DNA from: Bacteroidota bacterium
GTDB lineage: Bacteria; Bacteroidota; Bacteroidia; Bacteroidales; FEN-979
Assembly (NCBI GenBank): GCA_026391355.1
Contig: JAPLDH010000013.1
Span: 1-64,000, forward strand
DNA: 64,000 nt
Reading direction: 5' to 3'
Shown: one piece after another, positions 8,812-21,045 of the stretch
Numbering within the stretch: the stretch's first letter is position 1
How the letters are laid out: each line of letters starts with the position of its first letter
The notes under the pieces: model-generated
Told to the model about the DNA's origin: nothing
What the model saw: the letters and a program-made list of their open reading frames with translations, nothing else
Databases searched by the model: none
Program-made: the position numbers and the translations under genes

Positions 8812-11800
8812 TTATTGTTGTTTCATCATTTTTTTCGTTTCCACAACTTTCCCGTCGGCTACCAATGAATAAGAATACATTCCGGTGGATAAATCATTGG
8901 AATATACCTTTAACTTTCCTTCGCCACGGGTATTGATATCAACGACTTTAATAATTTGTCCCTTGTCATTATAAAACAAAATCCGGGCAACGCCTATTCG
9001 TCCAGGAATATTGTATGTGATGGAAGTTTGCTCCGCAAATGGATTTGGCACATTCTGGTTCAGGACAATTACATCTTCATCTGTCAAGGTAACATCAGAT
9101 TGATTGATCATCTTATCATTGCTGTTTACAGAACCGTCAGGTTTATTCAATTTTACATTAAGAGCAGCAGTCAGAAGCCTGATCAAACTATCCTGTTTCT
9201 CATTCTGACTTTGTAATTGCTGCACAGCCCTTATTAAAATGCCAGTAAATGCCTCATAATTGACCGATTTAAAAGAGACTCCTTCAGTGATGATCTTTCC
9301 GGCAGAATCAACCATTGCAGGCTTTTTATTATCGATGACCAATTCGGGTAAAACTTTTTCAACATCCTGTGCAATTACACCATATTGCTTTTTATCGCTG
9401 AAATGCATCCCGTACTTGTTTGCTTTATCATAGTAAAATGTTTTTGGTTTCAACTGTTTAATTATATCCAGTGCATTATCTATGGTATCTACATTTGTTT
9501 TAAACATCTGATCAGAAGTGATAACAATTCCTGTTCCGGATAACGGACCATTGATCCAGACATCGCCATCAAAAAATCCAGCATAATCCCATGGAGGAGA
9601 AGAGGCATTCCAGGGTGCATTTCCATAAACACCAACATTAATCCCTGTTGGAACAGTGGGTGGATTTGAAATGAAAGTAGTTGGATAAGCCATGCCACTT
9701 ACACCAATGTTTGTAGTCGTTCCGCCAAATGCCTGAAAGTATCCGCCAGTTGTATTTGCTCCGCCGTACGTGGGTGAATAAACTCCAAAATTATTATTTA
9801 TACCTCCGGAGGCTACTGAATACACCCCAATATTATCATTGGCATTACCAGCCGATGCCTGTACACCATAATTGATAATATTTCCTGCTGTTACTGATTC
9901 GAAGTAACCACCGAATGCCGGCCCAAATGTACTGACAGAACCTGCCTGGCCATGAACTCCGATTGCCTGCCTGTCTCCATTTGCAACACCCCACACACCT
10001 GTCTCATGCGTTCCTGTACCTGTAGAGGTTGCTTCGCCATAAACACCGGTATTATTTGAAAAAAGACTGCTGTGCGTATCTGTTGCATAAATAGAATAAC
10101 TATCACCGCTTGCTGAAACCGGATCACTTTGAAAAGCGGTCGTAACATTTAATTTTCCCGGCAAAGGACTACTCCCACAGGGAAATCCAATGTTCACCTT
10201 GTTATTGTTTGTACCGTCGCCGGAAAAATTAAAATCAAACGTATTTAGTGGTATTTCATAACTTGCGGTTAATGGGTTCTGAGGAAGCGTACAAATGTTT
10301 CCCAAGCTACCACCACTGGTTGTTGGCGCTGTAACATAAATTACATTGCCATTTGCATCCAGACTTAAAACACCCGGAGGTGTCGGATTTGTAGGTGAAA
10401 GACTATTTAGATTTCTGAATTTCAGACCTGAAGTATTCGGAGAACCCGTACTGATTTCCAATTTGTTTTGAGGACCGAGGGCATTACCGCTTAACCCAAT
10501 TCCAACATTTACATTGTTGTTGCCGAGGATCATATGGTTACTTCCCATCACGGAGGCAGCATCACCGATAGCAATGGCATTTTGTATATTTGGAAGCCCC
10601 GGACCTGAACCACCACCAAGGGCAACATTGTTAGACCCGGTTTGGTTTGCTGTGCCACTCCCAATACCGATGAAAACACACTGATATCCTCCAGTAGTGG
10701 CACCACCGGCGCCATTTCCAATGAATACACAGTGTAAACTGCCGGTGCTGTTAAACCCTGCATGCCAGCCTACATAAACATCCTCATCCGAGCCTTCATT
10801 AAATCCTGCCTGGGATCCGATAAACGTCGAATTATTCCCACCAAAGGCATAATTATAGCCGGCCTGGTATCCCATAATTGTATTGTGTGTGGATCCAAAT
10901 CCTCCTGCATTAAAATTAAAAGCTGCTTCACTCCCAACAATGGTGTTTTTATCTCCTAATGCGGTTGCCACACTGGCAGCGCTAAAGCCCATGATTGTAT
11001 TATTATTACCACTGGCAGTATTCATTCCTGCATTGACTCCGACATAAAGGTCGCTGGTGTTCCCTTTGTGCCATAATATTGCTTTATTTCCTAATTTGTA
11101 AGCATTTAAAGGCGAAACAACATTGATGTCGCCAAGATCAACATCCAGTGCATTAATTGGAGTGGTTGTATTTATTCCCACATATGGAAATGAAGGAAAC
11201 AAATCTGTAATATTTGTCCGGCAAATGGAATTACCTGTTGTAAATTTTGTAACATTATCCGTGAGGGGTCCCGGTACTGTACAAATATTTACCCCTCCTC
11301 CTGAAGGCGCAGCAACATAAATTACATTGCCATTTACATCCAGGCTTAAAACTCCGGTAGGGGTAGGATTTGTAGGTGAAAGGCTATTTAAATCCCTGAA
11401 TTTCAAACCTGATGTATTAGCAATACCGGTGCTTATTTCCAATTTATTCAATGGGCCGAAAGGATCGGCACTCAGACCAATTCCGACATTTACATTATTG
11501 TCGCCAAGAATCATCTGGTTGGAATTTGTCACCAGGGAATTAGTTCCTATAGCAATGGAATTTTGAAGGTTGCTCGAAAACGGGCCCGAACCAAAACCAA
11601 CAGCGACATTGTTTTGTCCGGTAGAATTTGACAAACCACTGGTATATCCCAGGAAAGTATTGCTGGAACCTGACGTCGTATTAAAGCCGCTGTAACTTCC
11701 CACAAATGTATTGTGGAAACTTTTGTTACTGTTGAACCCGGATTTTAAACCGATATAAACATGTTCACCACCGGTGGTTTCCGAGAATCCTGTCAGGGAG

Positions 11801-12807
11801 CCTAAAAAGGTGCATTCCTTACCATTCGTAGCGTTAAATCCTGACTGGAATCCCATAAAAGTATTGTCGTTCGCCCCTGGAGGTGCAGTCAGATTTTTTC
11901 CGGCTCCGCTTCCCATGATGGTATTCTGACCGCCTATAATACTGTTCACACTAACAGCATCGAATCCCATGATGGTATTGTCGTTACCGGAAGTGCCAGC
12001 CAGGTTTAACCCGGCATTAACCCCGGCAAAAATATTGCTTGAATTGCCTTTATGCCGTAAGACATATTGGTTACCAATCTTGTAGCCGACAGCAAAGTTA
12101 GAGGGGGAGAACACATTAACAGCTCCATCGTACACATCAAGCATATTGCCAGTGATTGGGCATTGCCAGTTCACACCCATGCCCTTTAATGGAGCGGTTG
12201 CCCAAGTATTGGTGGCACCCTTAATGGTAAAATATTTTGTGGTTACTTTCATGAGATCTGTAGTCAGTCCCGGTGAACATGGGAAAAGTGTATTTCCGAA
12301 AAAGCCAAAGGAGCCACTATCACTTGAAACGATCAGCGGACCATTGATTTTAGCACTGTCTGCTTCAAAATATCCATTCACTTTCACGCCACCGTTTGAA
12401 CCAAGCCTTATCCGCTCTTGTCCGTTTGTTCCAAGCCGTACAGGTTGACTATCGGTAGTACCGAAAAAATTTATTACTGAGTCTGTTCCGGCATTTCCCA
12501 TGACTTTCCATACATTTTCAGAATTGTCGATCTTTTCCCATTTTGTGGTGTAATACCAGAAACTCTGAGTATCTGTATCGTAAACCAGAAGACCATTGTC
12601 ATGAGCAGGGTCTGGAGTCATTGCCATGCGTTGGGTCGTTGTAACACGCGTAAAAAGTACTCCTTTGTCATGATTTTGTGCCCTCACTTCCAGCATAGAA
12701 TTCGTACTTACCGGAGCATTATTTGAACCATCGGTAATGACCACCTGGCCGAAAAGTGTAATAGTCAGGTTTATGAATAATAGAAAAAGGATATGTGTCT
12801 TTTTCAT
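8812..12807 (-). CDS. Giant surface protein with S74 chaperone domain and T9SS sorting domain
   Basis: The 1331-residue protein starts with a signal peptide (MKKTHILFLLFINLTITLFG). Residues about 250-480 and 580-790 hold many short iterations of the type NTIMGxxAG / NTFMGFQSGFN / NVAVGFGSG, as seen in trimeric fibre-like stalks. A tail-fibre peptidase S74 (intramolecular chaperone) domain follows, starting at Ser1098-Asp1099 (TSDQMFKTNV) and including YGVIAQDVEKVLPELV. A T9SS type A sorting domain ends the protein (NVPNPFAEQTSITYNI, IKVVD, LSTGMYSYSL). It is probably a large fibrous surface protein. The two halves of the stalk (about residues 240-510 and 565-840) are recognisably duplicated, each ending in a near-identical stretch with SGLKFRDLNSLSPTNPTP. 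Confidence 0.88.
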   Translation of the reverse strand: MKKTHILFLLFINLTITLFGQVVITDGSNNAPVSTNSMLEVRAQNHDKGVLFTRVTTTQRMAMTPDPAHDNGLLVYDTDTQSFWYYTTKWEKIDNSENVWKVMGNAGTDSVINFFGTTDSQPVRLGTNGQERIRLGSNGGVKVNGYFEADSAKINGPLIVSSDSGSFGFFGNTLFPCSPGLTTDLMKVTTKYFTIKGATNTWATAPLKGMGVNWQCPITGNMLDVYDGAVNVFSPSNFAVGYKIGNQYVLRHKGNSSNIFAGVNAGLNLAGTSGNDNTIMGFDAVSVNSIIGGQNTIMGSGAGKNLTAPPGANDNTFMGFQSGFNATNGKECTFLGSLTGFSETTGGEHVYIGLKSGFNSNKSFHNTFVGSYSGFNTTSGSSNTFLGYTSGLSNSTGQNNVAVGFGSGPFSSNLQNSIAIGTNSLVTNSNQMILGDNNVNVGIGLSADPFGPLNKLEISTGIANTSGLKFRDLNSLSPTNPTPTGVLSLDVNGNVIYVAAPSGGGVNICTVPGPLTDNVTKFTTGNSICRTNITDLFPSFPYVGINTTTPINALDVDLGDINVVSPLNAYKLGNKAILWHKGNTSDLYVGVNAGMNTASGNNNTIMGFSAASVATALGDKNTIVGSEAAFNFNAGGFGSTHNTIMGYQAGYNYAFGGNNSTFIGSQAGFNEGSDEDVYVGWHAGFNSTGSLHCVFIGNGAGGATTGGYQCVFIGIGSGTANQTGSNNVALGGGSGPGLPNIQNAIAIGDAASVMGSNHMILGNNNVNVGIGLSGNALGPQNKLEISTGSPNTSGLKFRNLNSLSPTNPTPPGVLSLDANGNVIYVTAPTTSGGSLGNICTLPQNPLTASYEIPLNTFDFNFSGDGTNNNKVNIGFPCGSSPLPGKLNVTTAFQSDPVSASGDSYSIYATDTHSSLFSNNTGVYGEATSTGTGTHETGVWGVANGDRQAIGVHGQAGSVSTFGPAFGGYFESVTAGNIINYGVQASAGNANDNIGVYSVASGGINNNFGVYSPTYGGANTTGGYFQAFGGTTTNIGVSGMAYPTTFISNPPTVPTGINVGVYGNAPWNASSPPWDYAGFFDGDVWINGPLSGTGIVITSDQMFKTNVDTIDNALDIIKQLKPKTFYYDKANKYGMHFSDKKQYGVIAQDVEKVLPELVIDNKKPAMVDSAGKIITEGVSFKSVNYEAFTGILIRAVQQLQSQNEKQDSLIRLLTAALNVKLNKPDGSVNSNDKMINQSDVTLTDEDVIVLNQNVPNPFAEQTSITYNIPGRIGVARILFYNDKGQIIKVVDINTRGEGKLKVYSNDLSTGMYSYSLVADGKVVETKKMMKQQ

Positions 12808-12864
12808 AACTTCATATTTGTTTGTTAATTAATTAATAATATTTTTATTTAGACTAAATTAATG

Positions 12865-12897
12865 CAAAGGTATAACAAAACATTCTATCAGTGACAA
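12865..12897 (-). promoter_or_regulatory. Probable promoter of the S74/T9SS gene
   Basis: On the minus strand TACCTTTG (12872-12865) matches TAnnTTTG exactly. A TTG lies at 12897-12895, 22 nt upstream, slightly longer than the usual 19-21. The predicted start of transcription is about 50 nt before the ATG at 12807. The intergenic region 12808-13153 (346 nt) separates two divergent genes and holds only this and the RHS promoter. Confidence 0.5.
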
Positions 12898-13023
12898 TTT
12901 TCTTTACTTTCTTATAGAAAAAATTTAAAAAGCAGGTTTATAGCAAGATAAAATGAGGAATGAAGAATGATGGATATTACCTTTTCCCGTTTTGGTAGCC
13001 ACTGGTTGCTTTTGCTTTTTCTC

Positions 13024-13054
13024 TTGCAAACCACAATTAATTGTCGTATATTTA
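13024..13054 (+). promoter_or_regulatory. Possible promoter of the RHS-repeat gene
   Basis: TTG at 13024-13026 and TATATTTA at 13047-13054 are separated by 20 nt and resemble the TTG/TAnnTTTG pair, with one mismatch in the -7 box. The chosen start codon lies about 100 nt downstream. Confidence 0.35.
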
Positions 13055-13153
13055 TTGCTTGAATTTTTCGTAAAAGACTATCCTGCCGCAAATTACTTCC
13101 TGTCCTTGTATGGCTCATTTCTGCTTATCGAATCATTCCTAAAATCAATAATC

Positions 13154-16100
13154 ATGAAAGCCGATGTACATATTTTTAAAACCATCATTCCGGCTGTTTT
13201 AATAATAAAGAAAATAAAACCCGGGATAGTATTGCTCACCGGTAAAACATGTAAGACTCTTGCACTCCTGTTCTTATTCATGTGTCTCCAAAACCCGGTT
13301 TCAGCATCCGACCTGACCAGGCCCAACGAACCCGGTCCCCGGTCTGACATCCAGGTAAATACCTTTACGGGAAATTTGTTTTACCAGCGGACTGATCTCC
13401 TGATACCGGTCCGGGGAGACATTCCGCTGGACATCACCTTTACTTACAACAGTCTGAAAAATCAGCAGGATAATGGATATGGCAAAGGATGGTCCTTCTT
13501 TTTCGGGATGTGGTACAACAGGGTTGAAAATACAGTGACCATAGGCCGGGAAGACGGACGGGAGGATGAATTTACCTGGTCAGGCTCTGCATTTATCTCC
13601 CCGGTGGGAGTATATGATGTGCTCACCGAATACGAACCCGGTAAATACCTGCTCACCACAAAATATGGCATCAAATACTATTTTGAGAACGCCACACTTA
13701 AGATGCTTACCAGGATCGTTGACAGAAACGGCAATACCATCAGTTTGTCCTTTACCGGTGGCAATCTCACCACCATTACCGACCCATCCGGCCGGGCGCT
13801 TACACTCAGTTGGGTGAGTAACCATCTGTCGCAGATCACCGACCCCAATACATCACCCAACCGGGTCATTACCTTTCAATACGATGTTTCATGGAATACA
13901 ATCCAGGTTACAAGGCCTTTGACCAATGTCTGTCAATACGGATATGATATTTCCGGGTGTATGACTTCCATCACCGATCCGCGTTCCACTACCGTGACCA
14001 TTTCATATGATGTGAACCAAGCCGTCGGCGGCATAAGCTGCCCTGTTGTGAATTACAATAAATTATTCCAGTATGATATATGTAATAATACAACGACGGT
14101 GAGCCAGGTCGTATCTTCTGTTAACCGGCAGATTGTTTACAGGTTTGACCAGCCGGGCAGGATGATCAGCAAGAAATTTCCGGGCGGAGATTCTATCAGC
14201 TATGCCTGGGATGCTTACAATAACATCACCACTTTTACCGATGAGAAGGGCAGTCAAACCTCCTTTACCTATGATACCAGGGCAAACCTGCTGACAGAGA
14301 CGGATTGTCTTGGAAATACCGATACCACCACCTATGAAGGCAGCTTCAATAATATTACCCGGTTCAGGGATAAAAATGGTAACATAACATCCTATTATTA
14401 CGATGATAAAGGAAACCGGACAGGGATGACCGATTGTAAGAATAACCAGGAGGCATACACCTATAATGTACACGGAGAGAGGATAACCATGGAGGATAAA
14501 AATGGGTTCACGACTGCCTTTTCTTATGATGTTTACGGGGATCTGGCAGGAAAGACCGATCCACTGGGATATTCAGAAACCTACACCTATGATCAGGCGG
14601 GGAACCTGCTGGTTTCTACCGATAAACGTGGCTATTCCATGACCTATGCCTATGATCTCCTGAACCGGCTCCTGAACAAGACTGATCCGCTTTCTTACGT
14701 GTACAGCTACCTCTATGACGCAAACGGAGATCTTGTCAGCGAAACGAATCCGGGTTCATTTACCACTACATGGTCATATGATCCGCTGAACAGGTTAATC
14801 ACTAAAACGAATGCGCTGTCGGGAGTGACAGGGTATGCGTATGATGAAACAGGAAATAAAATCTCAGAGACCAATACCCTCGGATACACAACATTCTATG
14901 CCTATGATGGACGGAACCGGCTGACGGGAGTCACTGATTGCCTTGGAAACACGGAATCGTACACGTTTGATCCCTCAGGTAACAGGCTCACAACAACTGA
15001 TAAGAACGGTCAAACCACCTTATTTCTTTATGATTGCCTGGGAAGGGTAGTTCGTTCAACAGACCCTTTCGGGAATAAGGATTCCACCATTTACGATGTC
15101 CTGGGCAACAGGGTTGGGTCAAAGTCAAGGAATGGTTTCCTGACGAATTATACTTATGATTGCCTGTCACAGCTGGTATCAGTAATCGATCCGCTTGGTA
15201 AATCCGAAACATATGATTTTGACCCTGTTGGAAACAGAACCGGGTTCACAGATAAAAACGGGAATACAATTACCTATACATTTAATAGCCTGAACCGTCT
15301 GGTTGGCACTGCCAACCCTCTTGGATTTACTGAATCCTATGTATATGACCCTGCAGGAAACTGGACCGGCTATACTGATAAAAACGGGAATACCAGCATA
15401 TACATTTTTAACAGTCTTAACCGGTTAACCGGTACAACTGATGCTATGGGTTTTACGGAATCAACCAGTTACGATCCGATTGGAAATAAAACAGGGATTA
15501 CGGATAAAAACGGGCATACTACCAGTTATGTGTATGACGCACTGAACCGAATGATACTGTTAACAGATCCGATCGGTAATTCAGAAGAATACGGATACGA
15601 CGCGATGAATAATCTGACAACTTTCACTGATAAAAATGGCAATACAACCACTAAAGTTTATGACTGCCTGAACCGTGATACATTGACCACCGACCCGATG
15701 GGTTATACCGAATCCTATGAATACAACCCGACAGGCAACATGACAGGTTATACCGACAAGAATGGTAACACCACTACTTATAATTATGACGGTGAAAGAC
15801 TGATCAATACCACTGATCCATTGGGCAATTCAGAATCCAATACGCATGATCCCAATGGTAACCTTACGGAAATATCGGATAAGAATGGATACACAACTAC
15901 CTATGTGTACAATGTATTAAACCGGTTGATTTCAACGACTGACCCATTGGGGGCGATAACCACGATCACCTACGATGACCATGGTAATCAGACATCAGAA
16001 ACAGATCCCCTCGGGAATACGACTTATCATTCATACGATCCCCTGAACCGGCCTGATACCATTGTTTACCCACAGGGTGAAATTACAGTAATTGTCTATG

Positions 16101-18709
16101 ATTCTTCCGGTAACAAGATCGAAGAAAAAGATGATCTGGGTAATTCCACAATCTATTCCTATGACGCCCTGAACAGGCTGATCAGTAAAACAGATGCACT
16201 AACACAAGTAGAAACCTATGGATATGATTCTGTTGGAAATATATCATTGGTTAAGGATCCAAACGGAAATACCACAAATTATACATACGATGCAATGAAC
16301 CGTGTGTTAACCATCACCACATCCCTGGGAAACCAGACCATATATGTGTATGACCCGTTTGGCAATGTAATAAAGCGCACGGATCCTGACGGCCAGGTCA
16401 CTGACTATTCGTATGATGCCGACAACCGAGAGGTATCTGCAACCTATCCAGGAGTATCCGAATCTATGACAGAATCAAACATCGTTATCAATACCCAATA
16501 TGACCGGGCAGGCAATCCTATCCAGGTTACGAACTCAGGAGGGATAGGAGATACTACTACTCATGCTTATAATGATCTGAACAGGTGCATTTCCACAACT
16601 GTGAATTTTGGTCCGTTTTCAAAAACAGTGAGTTATACCTTTGACAATGTTGGTAATGAATTAACCAAAAGCGGCGCTGCAGGTACGATTCAGAAGACCT
16701 ATAATGCAAACAACCAGGTTTTGACCGTAACTGGCCAGGATACCAGCCTGACGCAATATACCTATGACCTTGTCGGGAGGAGAACCCAGGTACTTTTTAA
16801 TGATGGAATGGAGGGTTCCATAAGTTATTATGCAAATAACCAGGTAGAGGATTATCTGATGAAAACACCTGTTGGTGATACCTTACAGGCAATCCATTAT
16901 ACTTATAATCAAACCGGACAAAAAACGATAGAAATACACGAGGACGGCGATTCACTATTATTCACATGGGATAATACAGGCAGACTGATCAGGGAGAAAA
17001 ACCTCTTTAAAGATGACAGCACCCTATATACCTATGATTCAGCAGGTAATCGTCTGACAAAAAATTTCAACGGCAGTATAACATCATACACCTACAATGA
17101 TGAAAATAGGGTAATTTCGGCAGGACCGGTGAAGTTTGGGTATAATAAAAACGGTAGCCGGGTACTGAAGAAAGACACGGTTACCGGTGATTCAACGAGT
17201 TACGCATATGACCCTGAAAAGAGGCTGACCATTGTGGCCAGACCCTATGACACCAATGCATTTTTCTATGATCCGAATGGAAAACAACTTGCAAAGACCA
17301 GCTACGGATCGATGAAATATATAATGCATGGCAGCCCTGACCCGCTGGAAGAATATATGGTCTCCGGTACCACTGTTTACATGCTGGCAAGTTATAATCA
17401 GGGAATAGGTATCCAACATGGACCTATGTATGGTACATACGTTTACAATGGAGAGGGTTCTTCAACAGGCCAGGCTGTTAAGATCCTGGGGTTGGATACC
17501 ACTTTTTACGCCAGTGCCGGATATGATGCTTTTGGCAATGTTATAGATATGCAAGGAATGTGGGTGAACAATGAGATCAAATTCAGGGGAATGGTTTGGG
17601 ACCAGGATGTTCAGTTGTACCAATCAGGTTCATTGAAATATGATCCTGTCACGGGAGATATTTTAAACCCGACAAACTATAAAATTAAGGATAAGGGCAA
17701 GGTAATTTATGACCCCGGAACCATGACCGTTGAAACTCCTGTCTATTACATAATAAGCACCTCAACCACATCGACTCCGGTCTCCGTAACGGATCCTGCG
17801 GCTGATGCATTAGCAAAAGGGTTAATCTGCGGAACGATGGGTTATCAGTGGTCAAATCATAACAAAGCACCTGATGATATTGTTATTCCACCCAGCGTCC
17901 GGTTGCTTTGCGGAACAATTGCTGCCGAGATGACGGCGAGAGCAGGAAAGCCAAATGATATTGTCATTCCGGAAGTAAAGCCTCCGGTGATGTTTGTCGA
18001 TTTTATCTTACCGGATGAAACACCCGAGCAAAAAACAGCCCGGCTTATCGGTTACAATTATAAATTCATCCCCGTACCCAATGTTGACCCAAGGATCATT
18101 CATGCACAGGTCCAGGCTTATCTTGACCGTCTCGACGCGGAGAGGAAGCAAAAAGAGAAGGAAGAACTTGAATATAAGATGAAACTACAGAATCTGCAGA
18201 AAAAAATAGACGATCTGGGAGCATTGATTGACAAACTCAGAAACCAAAGAATAATAATCCATCAAAAGCAACGGGATATTGCCTGGCAACAGAACAAACT
18301 TAACGAGGAAACCTCTTTGATCGATTATGCATCCGCCGGAGTAAAATCGTTCAATAAGTGGTTCAAAATAGCGGATAAAATAAAGGAAGTGGCTGAGATA
18401 CTCAAGAATTTCAGCAGTAGTATTGAAAAAGACCAAACCATTAGTGGCCAGGAGGCAAAGACCCGGGAAAGCTTGTATGGTGAAATCTACAACCAGTTAA
18501 GTAAGATACAGGGAGCAGCCAATGCTTGGGCAGAAGCCAAAATAGGTGAAAACTATCAGGATGTTGAAAATGTCAGGGTGCAGTTGCTGCAGGAAGAGCT
18601 TGCAAACAGGTTTATAGATGTCAGAATCGGGGGCATGGTGTCAGGGTTGGAAGCAGAACGTGTGAATTTGCAACAGGAACAAAGCAGGCTGGTTCAAGAA
18701 CAGAAATAA
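13154..18709 (+). CDS. RHS/YD-repeat protein with coiled-coil C-terminus
   Basis: The frame is open from 12992, but the ATG at 13154 (MKADVHIFK) gives a long N-terminus ending in a hydrophobic export-type segment (LALLFLFMCLQNPVSAS). The 1851-residue product has a DUF6531-like start (VNTFTGNLFYQRTDLLIPV), then about 40 YD-type repeats (YDxxGNxxxxTDxxGN) up to about residue 1470, which fold into the hollow RHS shell. The core end is weak: LKYDPVTGDILNPTNY replaces the usual YDPETGRY..PDP. The last 380 residues include a long charged coiled coil (AERKQKEKEELEYKMK). No nuclease or other toxin motif was recognised, and no immunity gene is evident downstream. It is an exported RHS protein of unknown action. 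Confidence 0.88.
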   Translation: MKADVHIFKTIIPAVLIIKKIKPGIVLLTGKTCKTLALLFLFMCLQNPVSASDLTRPNEPGPRSDIQVNTFTGNLFYQRTDLLIPVRGDIPLDITFTYNSLKNQQDNGYGKGWSFFFGMWYNRVENTVTIGREDGREDEFTWSGSAFISPVGVYDVLTEYEPGKYLLTTKYGIKYYFENATLKMLTRIVDRNGNTISLSFTGGNLTTITDPSGRALTLSWVSNHLSQITDPNTSPNRVITFQYDVSWNTIQVTRPLTNVCQYGYDISGCMTSITDPRSTTVTISYDVNQAVGGISCPVVNYNKLFQYDICNNTTTVSQVVSSVNRQIVYRFDQPGRMISKKFPGGDSISYAWDAYNNITTFTDEKGSQTSFTYDTRANLLTETDCLGNTDTTTYEGSFNNITRFRDKNGNITSYYYDDKGNRTGMTDCKNNQEAYTYNVHGERITMEDKNGFTTAFSYDVYGDLAGKTDPLGYSETYTYDQAGNLLVSTDKRGYSMTYAYDLLNRLLNKTDPLSYVYSYLYDANGDLVSETNPGSFTTTWSYDPLNRLITKTNALSGVTGYAYDETGNKISETNTLGYTTFYAYDGRNRLTGVTDCLGNTESYTFDPSGNRLTTTDKNGQTTLFLYDCLGRVVRSTDPFGNKDSTIYDVLGNRVGSKSRNGFLTNYTYDCLSQLVSVIDPLGKSETYDFDPVGNRTGFTDKNGNTITYTFNSLNRLVGTANPLGFTESYVYDPAGNWTGYTDKNGNTSIYIFNSLNRLTGTTDAMGFTESTSYDPIGNKTGITDKNGHTTSYVYDALNRMILLTDPIGNSEEYGYDAMNNLTTFTDKNGNTTTKVYDCLNRDTLTTDPMGYTESYEYNPTGNMTGYTDKNGNTTTYNYDGERLINTTDPLGNSESNTHDPNGNLTEISDKNGYTTTYVYNVLNRLISTTDPLGAITTITYDDHGNQTSETDPLGNTTYHSYDPLNRPDTIVYPQGEITVIVYDSSGNKIEEKDDLGNSTIYSYDALNRLISKTDALTQVETYGYDSVGNISLVKDPNGNTTNYTYDAMNRVLTITTSLGNQTIYVYDPFGNVIKRTDPDGQVTDYSYDADNREVSATYPGVSESMTESNIVINTQYDRAGNPIQVTNSGGIGDTTTHAYNDLNRCISTTVNFGPFSKTVSYTFDNVGNELTKSGAAGTIQKTYNANNQVLTVTGQDTSLTQYTYDLVGRRTQVLFNDGMEGSISYYANNQVEDYLMKTPVGDTLQAIHYTYNQTGQKTIEIHEDGDSLLFTWDNTGRLIREKNLFKDDSTLYTYDSAGNRLTKNFNGSITSYTYNDENRVISAGPVKFGYNKNGSRVLKKDTVTGDSTSYAYDPEKRLTIVARPYDTNAFFYDPNGKQLAKTSYGSMKYIMHGSPDPLEEYMVSGTTVYMLASYNQGIGIQHGPMYGTYVYNGEGSSTGQAVKILGLDTTFYASAGYDAFGNVIDMQGMWVNNEIKFRGMVWDQDVQLYQSGSLKYDPVTGDILNPTNYKIKDKGKVIYDPGTMTVETPVYYIISTSTTSTPVSVTDPAADALAKGLICGTMGYQWSNHNKAPDDIVIPPSVRLLCGTIAAEMTARAGKPNDIVIPEVKPPVMFVDFILPDETPEQKTARLIGYNYKFIPVPNVDPRIIHAQVQAYLDRLDAERKQKEKEELEYKMKLQNLQKKIDDLGALIDKLRNQRIIIHQKQRDIAWQQNKLNEETSLIDYASAGVKSFNKWFKIADKIKEVAEILKNFSSSIEKDQTISGQEAKTRESLYGEIYNQLSKIQGAANAWAEAKIGENYQDVENVRVQLLQEELANRFIDVRIGGMVSGLEAERVNLQQEQSRLVQEQK

Positions 18710-19575: not shown

Positions 19576-19606
19576 TTGCAACCTGTTTTTCTTTTCATTA
19601 GATTTG
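19576..19606 (+). promoter_or_regulatory. Promoter of the T9SS repeat protein gene
   Basis: TTG (19576-19578) and TAGATTTG (19599-19606) are spaced by exactly 20 nt and match the Bacteroidota promoter pattern. The start codon candidates at 19648 and 19657 lie about 35-45 nt after the expected transcription start. Confidence 0.65.
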
Positions 19607-19647
19607 AAGTGTTTCTGATACTGAAAGTCCATCTAACACATCATAAA

Positions 19648-21045
19648 ATGCACAGGATGAGAAAATTATTCTACTTTTTTTTGTTTTTGCTTCCGGTTTT
19701 TGCTGGTGCTCAAAACGATCTGTACAAATCTTCCCCATTGGGTTATATGTGGAAGTATGTTGGTAATCAGGGTTTCTCAAGCGGACAGGCGGATTTCCTC
19801 AGCCTCGCCTTCAGCCCTACTGATCACTTTCCTTATGTAGCTTATATGGATTATGGAGATACCATGAAAGCAATGGTAAAAAAATATGACGGAGTCAACT
19901 GGGTGAATATAGGGAATGCCATGTCTTCAGGAGAATGGTCAATGTTTACAAGCCTCGCCTTCAGCCCCGTCGGCCAACCTTACATTGCTTATTGTGACGC
20001 TGCGATTGGTTACGGTGCGACAGTTATGAAATTTGACGGAACAAACTGGGTGAATGTTGGTACCCCCGGATTCTCGGCAGGAGCAGCGCAGAGTACCTGC
20101 CTTGCTTTCAACCCAACAGATGGAAACCCGTACGTTGCTTACCAGGATGATGGGAACCATGATAAGATCACAGTGATGAAATTTGACGGAACCAATTGGG
20201 TGAATGTCGGAAATACGGGATTCTCAGCCGGGGTTGCACTGGAAACCAGCCTTGCATTCAGCCCATCCGGCCAGCCTTTTGTGGCTTTTAAGGACTGGAC
20301 GGCAGCCAAAGGAGCAACGGTGATGAAATTTGACGGGACAACATGGGTGGTTGTCGGGTCAGCTGGTTTGTTGGCAGGAGTGGCCGATTACATTACCCTC
20401 GCCATCCATCCCTCTGGTCAGCCCTATGTTGCCTATATGGACTCTGCAAATTATTCCAGGGCTTCTGTAAAGAAATTTGACGGAACCGACTGGGTATATG
20501 TGGGAAATCCGGGTTTTTCAGCCGGTTGGGCTGAATGGATCAGCCTTGCCTTCAATCCATCCGGTCAACCCTGTATCGCGTATGAGGATTTTGGGTTTGA
20601 CCGTAAAGCAACGTTGATGAAATTTAACGGAACTTTCTGGGATTATGTCGGAATTGAAGGCTTCACGGGTGATTGGGCGGAATTCAACAGTCTTGTCTTC
20701 AATCCATCCAATGGTCAGGCCTATGTTGCCTATCAGGATAATGATGATTCCATGAAAGCATCGGTTATGAGATATGATTCCGTTTATGTTGGGATAAATG
20801 AACCAGGTGACACAAGTATATCCATCTACCCAAATCCTGCAACGGATAAGATTACCACTAAATTTGCAGGGTTAACTTCAGGATTACATCTGGCTATTAT
20901 GAATATTTATGGCCAGGAAATCATGAGCCGACAAATAACCGGACCTAAAACGCAAATTGATATTTCCGATCTTCCTGGGGGAACTTATTTGGTTAGATTG
21001 AATTGCGACAAATCTGTGTTTGTGACCAAGCTATTCAAATATTAA
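19648..21045 (+). CDS. Secreted repeat protein with T9SS sorting domain
   Basis: The 465-residue protein begins MHRMRKLFYFFLFLLPVFAG. ATGs at 19648 and 19657 are both possible and both follow the promoter at 19576-19606, which rules out the longer open frame. The mature part is eight or so copies of a roughly 50-residue repeat of the type MKFDGTNWVNVGNxGFSAG followed by SLAFxPSGQPYVAYxD. This pattern suggests a beta-propeller or similar repeat fold. A type A sorting domain closes it: ISIYPNPATDKITTKF, MNIYGQEIMSRQ and LPGGTYLVRLN. It is expected to be exported by T9SS. The ligand is unknown. Confidence 0.85.
   Translation: MHRMRKLFYFFLFLLPVFAGAQNDLYKSSPLGYMWKYVGNQGFSSGQADFLSLAFSPTDHFPYVAYMDYGDTMKAMVKKYDGVNWVNIGNAMSSGEWSMFTSLAFSPVGQPYIAYCDAAIGYGATVMKFDGTNWVNVGTPGFSAGAAQSTCLAFNPTDGNPYVAYQDDGNHDKITVMKFDGTNWVNVGNTGFSAGVALETSLAFSPSGQPFVAFKDWTAAKGATVMKFDGTTWVVVGSAGLLAGVADYITLAIHPSGQPYVAYMDSANYSRASVKKFDGTDWVYVGNPGFSAGWAEWISLAFNPSGQPCIAYEDFGFDRKATLMKFNGTFWDYVGIEGFTGDWAEFNSLVFNPSNGQAYVAYQDNDDSMKASVMRYDSVYVGINEPGDTSISIYPNPATDKITTKFAGLTSGLHLAIMNIYGQEIMSRQITGPKTQIDISDLPGGTYLVRLNCDKSVFVTKLFKY

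Follow-up and report, generated by a model that had tools for sequence, protein, structure and literature searches.

Self-cutting S74 domains work through a Ser-Lys pair, which is described as S587/K592 in MYRF and S911/K916 in endoNF (PMC8326128) and as S1264/K1269 in T5 pb1 (PMC4690869), and the cut is reported to occur once the trimer has correctly formed (PMC8326128, PMC4690869). In bacteria, S74 self-cutting has been demonstrated experimentally for Bdellovibrio Bd3182 (PMC10769870), and S74 is also known from eCIS loci (PMC8213781). A review on the type IX secretion system (T9SS) gives periplasmic folding of the cargo as a proposal and describes PorU as removing the sorting domain after translocation (PMC10202324); gingipains truncated at the very end of the sorting domain are reported to stay periplasmic (PMC4804311). 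Bacterial S74 self-cutting and T9SS cargo are each already known alone, and their combination was not found in the open-licence PMC literature that we searched.

In the window (the whole stretch of DNA analysed here, 64,000 nucleotides), both modules occur in one 1331-aa protein, residues 1093-1331 of which correspond to 8812-9530 on the minus strand within ORF 8812-12807. The earlier note had read this part as an S74 domain ahead of a T9SS sorting domain, and the arrangement is real: PF13884 matches residues 1098-1157, TIGR04183 matches residues 1254-1330, and both parts adopt the corresponding folds in a structural model. The gene is laid out as follows:

8812..12807, minus strand: whole gene, encoding a 1331-aa secreted fibre-like protein (ORF)
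12748..12807, minus strand: probable Sec signal peptide, residues 1-20 (hydrophobic N-terminus ending FGQ, by eye)
12520..12747, minus strand: N-terminal domain, residues ~21-96 (own HMM)
10438..11106, minus strand: glycine-rich repeat region, second copy, residues 568-790, perhaps a beta-roll (AlphaFold, weak Foldseek matches)
9517..9519, minus strand: Thr1097, preceding the predicted scissile bond (T is the commonest residue here, in 38/113 sorting-domain members)
9514..9516, minus strand: Ser1098, predicted nucleophile, codon TCT (start of the PF13884 match; aligned with MYRF position 587)
9499..9501, minus strand: Lys1103, predicted general base, codon AAA (S-x4-K spacing; alignment)
9337..9516, minus strand: S74 / ICA core, residues 1098-1157 (PF13884, fold matches)
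9148..9255, minus strand: helix predicted to form a trimeric coiled coil, residues 1185-1220 (model helix 112-147)
9079..9147, minus strand: linker, residues ~1221-1243, low confidence (pLDDT <50 at model residues 153-170)
8818..9048, minus strand: T9SS type A sorting domain, residues 1254-1330 (TIGR04183; CTD-like fold)

By eye, the N-terminus has no lipobox Cys, and the N-termini of two paralogues from the same genome (L151 and L153) resemble it; our own HMM picked out the N-terminal domain type of residues ~21-96 in 3/80 proteins with a sorting domain and in 20/89 without one. Glycine-rich repeat copies fill the passenger at ~243-470 (by eye) and 568-790. The second copy was modelled by AlphaFold at pLDDT 71, and Foldseek related it weakly to left-handed beta-helices and the YadA-like heads 7o23, 3s6l and 1p9h, with no match at E 0.001 or better; the VIA list for the same region consisted mostly of left-handed beta-helix acyltransferases. 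PF05658 (YadA head repeat) was matched by 2/23 aligned repeats and by none in the window copy, and no C-terminal YadA membrane anchor was matched in Pfam to E 10, the C-terminus being the sorting domain. A beta-roll is weakly suggested for these repeats by the models. A trimeric fibre is likely, because the (weak) YadA-like repeats are joined by matches of the protein's C-terminal part to phage tail-fibre families.

The surroundings of the gene include a divergent 1905-aa RHS/YD-repeat ORF with 18 RHS repeat stretches at 12992-18709 (plus strand), behind it a 121-aa ORF with no Pfam match, and two more T9SS sorting-domain proteins at 565-1788 and 19576-21045 (plus strand). Upstream of the S74 gene, at ~12850-12900 on the minus strand, a TTG and a TACCTTTG box, spotted by eye, presumably resemble a Bacteroidota promoter.

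PF13884 (Peptidase_S74) was matched at 1098-1157 with E 2e-16 and 60.4 bits (cut-off 22), and no other Pfam family was listed for the protein at E 10 or below. In the AlphaFold model of residues 1074-1331 (single chain; pLDDT 86.6, pTM 0.56), the S74 part superimposed on the MyRF ICA chain 7dc3_B with Z 10.4 and 2.4 A over 130 residues (Foldseek E 9e-6; the VIA alignment to 7dc3 covers model residues 8-145) and on the endoNF chaperone 3gw6 with E 2e-4; the best solved chain by sequence was the phage long tail fibre 6f45. A flexible linker follows helix 1185-1220 in the model and separates S74 from the sorting domain.

The earlier note had named a Ser-Asp pair as catalytic; Ser1098 stands, and its partner is Lys1103, since the pair is Ser-Lys. 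D1099 is conserved, yet lies outside the pair. In a profile alignment to MYRF and phage chains, S1098 and K1103 occupy the positions of MYRF S587 and K592 at the same spacing. Of the other S74 residues, whose conservation the earlier note had proposed to check, F1124, Y1126, I1145 and Q1147 are kept: in the profile alignment to 7dc3 (hand-counted numbering), MYRF Y615 and Y617 correspond to F1124 and Y1126, and I637 and Q639 to I1145 and Q1147. Joint loss of MYRF Y615 and Y617 is reported to block the correct cut (PMC8326128). By the same alignment and numbering, R590 of MYRF, at +3 from the Ser, corresponds to M1101, and the R590A mutant is described as cutting at two other sites (PMC8326128).

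Two ideas about Arg positions were set aside, the first being the -14 Arg as an indicator of activity. Position -14 from the Ser is W1084, the sensor Arg of T5 pb1 and endoNF being missing. The -14 Arg does not discriminate, because it is absent almost throughout the pool (Arg in 2% of the 113 members with a sorting domain and 5% of the 154 without) and in MYRF, which by the published analysis lacks it and still cuts (PMC8326128). The idea that sorting-domain proteins slow their cutting by losing the +3 Arg was likewise rejected as a general rule: the difference in the full pool (35/113 sorting-domain members versus 124/155 others) stems from loci fetched with a window-like query, of which 11/81 have the Arg, and among survey loci alone the counts are 24/32 versus 124/154 (p 0.48).

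At the C-terminal end, TIGR04183 (NCBIfam) scored 21.1 bits at 1254-1330 in the whole protein, just below its 23-bit cut-off, and 26.3 bits, above it, when residues 1074-1331 were scanned alone; PF18962 reached 19.3 bits, under its 27-bit cut-off, and was unlisted in the whole-protein scan. An alignment of 65 rows (the window protein and 64 diverse relatives, from 111 pre-selected for the Ser and a sorting-domain call) gave an S74 match in 65/65, TIGR04183 in 62/65 and PF18962 in 51/65. Its sorting-domain columns contain invariant or nearly invariant positions up to the last strand, and the terminal strand pair is conserved. The tail is modelled as an Ig-like sandwich of at least 6 strands within residues 1260-1329, and matches the CTDs of PorU (6za2, Z 10.0), PorZ (5m11, Z 9.4) and mirolase (8qb1, Z 9.2); the fold is common, and unrelated Ig-like chains, including the top row, score like CTDs against it. 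The genome of the window encodes one SprA (2621 bits), three PorU sortases that pass the family cut-off, and at least 150 T9SS sorting domains. The three PorU genes stand in tandem (G000:C26:39746-50045). Across 100 N-complete sorting-domain domains, a crude script called 78 signal peptides SPI-like and 2 lipobox-like.

S74 is a common domain in this phylum: it was present in 107/395 Bacteroidota genomes in a first survey and in 52/198 in a second, overlapping one whose query was free of catalytic positions. The first survey retained the best 150 loci, ranked by a model that included the catalytic pair; because this ranking was biased by the pair, searches were repeated without the catalytic positions. 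Among the matches listed, S74 was followed by a sorting domain in 33/193 distinct domains from survey loci, and the window's own genome has six S74 loci, of which the window gene and L149 also carry a sorting domain. To collect relatives from named genomes, a query was joined from the stretch that follows the catalytic pair and the sorting domain; of 343 relatives matching either part the best 80 were retained. Of these, 79 belong to Bacteroidota lineages, some assigned through the genus, and one is labelled 'uncultured bacterium'; the carriers include the cultured Taishania pollutisoli (locus L264). Sorting domains were called with our own model built from 19 tails picked by eye, the NCBIfam/Pfam check covering 65 rows. 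After S74 stretches below 35 residues had been dropped, removal of repeats reduced 319 domains to a pool of 277, with 116 sorting-domain S74 domains, 83 of them obtained via the query lacking the catalytic residues.

Among the matches listed, Ser and Lys are both kept in 113/116 sorting-domain S74 domains of this pool (81 via the query lacking the catalytic residues, 32 from survey loci), and Lys is present in 113/113 members that have the Ser. As for the remaining three, L226 (contig edge) and L256 (broken frame) are unreadable, and L074 has lost both residues (Glu/Arg). S74 domains without a sorting domain keep both residues in 155/161 cases. A further 21 passenger-bearing domains have both residues without exception, 7/7 of those in sorting-domain frames included, and proteins with a passenger and a sorting domain thus carry the pair in every readable case (113/113 pooled and 7/7 further). 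The codons of the catalytic Ser in the sorting-domain set are split between TCN (102) and AGY (11). On a short and weakly resolved S74 tree, the sorting-domain label changes at least 26 times, and the state of the pair 8 times if unreadable rows are treated as losses. As far as these sequences tell, the sorting domain does not relax retention of the pair.

Secreted S74 proteins that lack a passenger behave differently, the pair being kept in 5/11 and lost in 6/11 (L074, L117, L184, L191, L193 and L308, in which the signal peptide directly abuts S74), with A/Q as replacements in three, P/K in two and E/R in one. Passenger-bearing domains have lost it in 2/285 (Fisher p ~1e-8 against 6/11, or 1e-4 when the passenger-less losses are counted as three groups). 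The two exceptions, both without a sorting domain, are L029 (A/A) and L203 (divergent, read by offset). This comparison leaves aside four short frames with no clear signal peptide and the pair kept (L295, L272, L080, L065) and the unreadable L256 and L226. Because of the contrast between 6/11 and 2/285, the pair seems dispensable for the fold and appears, from these sequences, to be retained where a cut would have something to detach. Ten of the 11 passenger-less proteins belong to a subfamily of ten members (at least 138 bits versus 90 for the next, among the matches listed in a class-wide search), of which 5/10 keep the pair and 5/10 have lost it; as these 11 are a small set and stem mostly from one lineage, their losses are support, not proof.

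Several other arrangements were met in the collection. L302-L311 and the second ORF of L074 are small secreted proteins consisting of signal peptide, S74 and coiled coil, in frames of 140-199 aa; the passenger-less subfamily is perhaps a chaperone without a client in cis that acts on other fibres. Four S74 genes follow in a row across L029 (708-2833) and L085 (1597-4091) (G353:C24), and the L029 gene at 1780-2833 has a passenger, Ala at both catalytic positions and intact copies adjoining it. Two consecutive S74 matches occur within single frames in L092 (1805-4085) and L330. In L053, L056, L092 and L111, a TM-like helix lies behind S74 near the C-terminus (with more sequence after it in L111), and the pair is kept in all five domains; as in MYRF, a self-cutting domain would here be followed by a membrane tether.

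Taken together, we consider it probable, with some reserve, that the protein is a secreted, probably trimeric fibre or adhesin whose C-terminal 234 residues serve as a disposable cassette for assembly and export, in the order export, folding, self-cutting. Sec would carry the chain into the periplasm, where the type IX machinery would take up the C-terminal sorting domain. S74 and the coiled coil would then gather three chains, and folding of the fibre would be nucleated from its C-terminal end; once this end is correctly folded, Ser1098, aided by Lys1103, would attack the T1097-S1098 bond, T5 pb1 being likewise reported to cut Thr-Ser (PMC4690869). The products would be the fibre (~21-1097) and the chaperone with the sorting domain (1098-1331), so the earlier note's expectation that one cut would take off both modules together agrees with the anatomy of the protein. 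Because the two modules would not otherwise both be useful, and are conserved together, we infer that the chains do not assemble or cut until they have reached or passed the outer membrane, export coming first and folding and cutting second, with the fibre presumably released. PorU may also cut the linker, at ~1221-1253, in which case any surface anchor would end up on the chaperone and not on the fibre.

Published accounts of the two modules speak against this order. The S74 cut follows folding in phages and trimerisation in MYRF (PMC8326128, PMC4690869), and periplasmic folding is proposed for T9SS cargo (PMC10202324); if both hold here, S74 would cut too early and the export signal would be lost before use. 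On such grounds S74 might cut in the periplasm upon trimer folding, the fibre then being exported non-covalently on its tagged chaperone or staying behind. We regard this as unlikely, given that the chaperone-fibre interface of T5 pb1 is described as small and almost exclusively hydrophilic and that, as the authors of that study argue, the chaperone has to come off (PMC4690869); besides, a sorting domain shed unused is not expected to stay conserved, yet here it is conserved to its last strand. Cutting may instead have been lost or fallen out of use, as the earlier note allowed, leaving S74 as a trimerising chaperone only, with the whole protein exported, trimmed by PorU and anchored C-terminally. 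The missing -14 sensor Arg and the Met1101 in place of the +3 Arg speak against cutting here, and natural copies without the pair exist: an uncut form can occur, L029 and L203 lacking the pair despite a passenger. This reading is nevertheless improbable, because Ser1098 and Lys1103 are present and the pair is kept in 113/113 and 7/7 passenger-bearing sorting-domain proteins (113/114 readable sorting-domain domains) while it varies in passenger-less relatives of the same fold; MYRF, too, is without the sensor Arg and is reported to cut (PMC8326128).

The conflict between export and cutting would vanish if the terminal Ig-like domain were a decayed or re-used FlgD-like domain with no working T9SS signal. 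Its sub-threshold scores with PF18962 and, in the whole protein, TIGR04183 fit such an origin, as does FlgD_ig, which is matched by 34/65 aligned rows (best E 1e-6). Against these stand TIGR04183 matches in 62/65 rows, the conserved terminal strand pair, and a genome that encodes SprA, PorU and at least 150 domains of this kind, and we hold this explanation to be very improbable.

Under the favoured order of export, folding and self-cutting, one may tentatively generalise, at somewhat less than even confidence, that Bacteroidota shed a T9SS tag by folding-triggered self-cleavage: the fibre would be exported unassembled, trimerise outside and be released independently of the sortase. Such coupling of export, quality control and sortase-independent release, if true, would be an exception to the proposed periplasmic folding of cargo. 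Individually well understood, the modules make conflicting demands when joined, in that the sorting domain must stay attached until export and S74 cuts when folding is complete; their conserved pairing thereby offers a natural test of the stage at which T9SS cargo folds. A cut after export would mean that large trimeric fibres can be built outside the cell and set free with no need of a sortase; a cut before it would require the sorting domain to work while non-covalently held. Either answer would, to our knowledge, be new for T9SS.

Compared with described systems, the window protein shares with phage S74 proteins (endoNF of K1F, T5 pb1, the GA-1 neck appendage; PF13884) the family, the Ser-x4-Lys spacing, the C-terminal place on a long beta-rich chain and the coiled coil behind; it differs in adding a secretion signal after the chaperone and in having no -14 Arg. 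The animal MYRF ICA is the best fold match for the S74 part (7dc3) and has in common with it the Ser-Lys pair, the aromatic pair, the Gln and the lack of a sensor Arg, as well as a cut (predicted here) that separates a functional N-terminal part from an anchoring C-terminal one. MYRF is described as tethered to the ER membrane, whereas the C-terminal piece of the window protein is an export tag. The S74-bearing MAT fibres of Bdellovibrio are likewise bacterial secreted fibres with an SDxxxK S74 domain, but 13 MATs are described as terminating in S74, and that description mentions no sorting domain behind it (PMC10769870). With YadA-type trimeric autotransporters, the protein shares glycine-rich, perhaps beta-roll passenger repeats of weak fold similarity; unlike them, it ends in a sorting domain with no YadA anchor matched, and its export would be by T9SS. 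T9SS type A cargo, as described for RgpB (PMC4804311), resembles it in the probable signal peptide and the C-terminal Ig-like sorting domain; relative to such cargo with a PorU-cut CTD, the window protein has a second, predicted self-acting cut site ahead of that domain.
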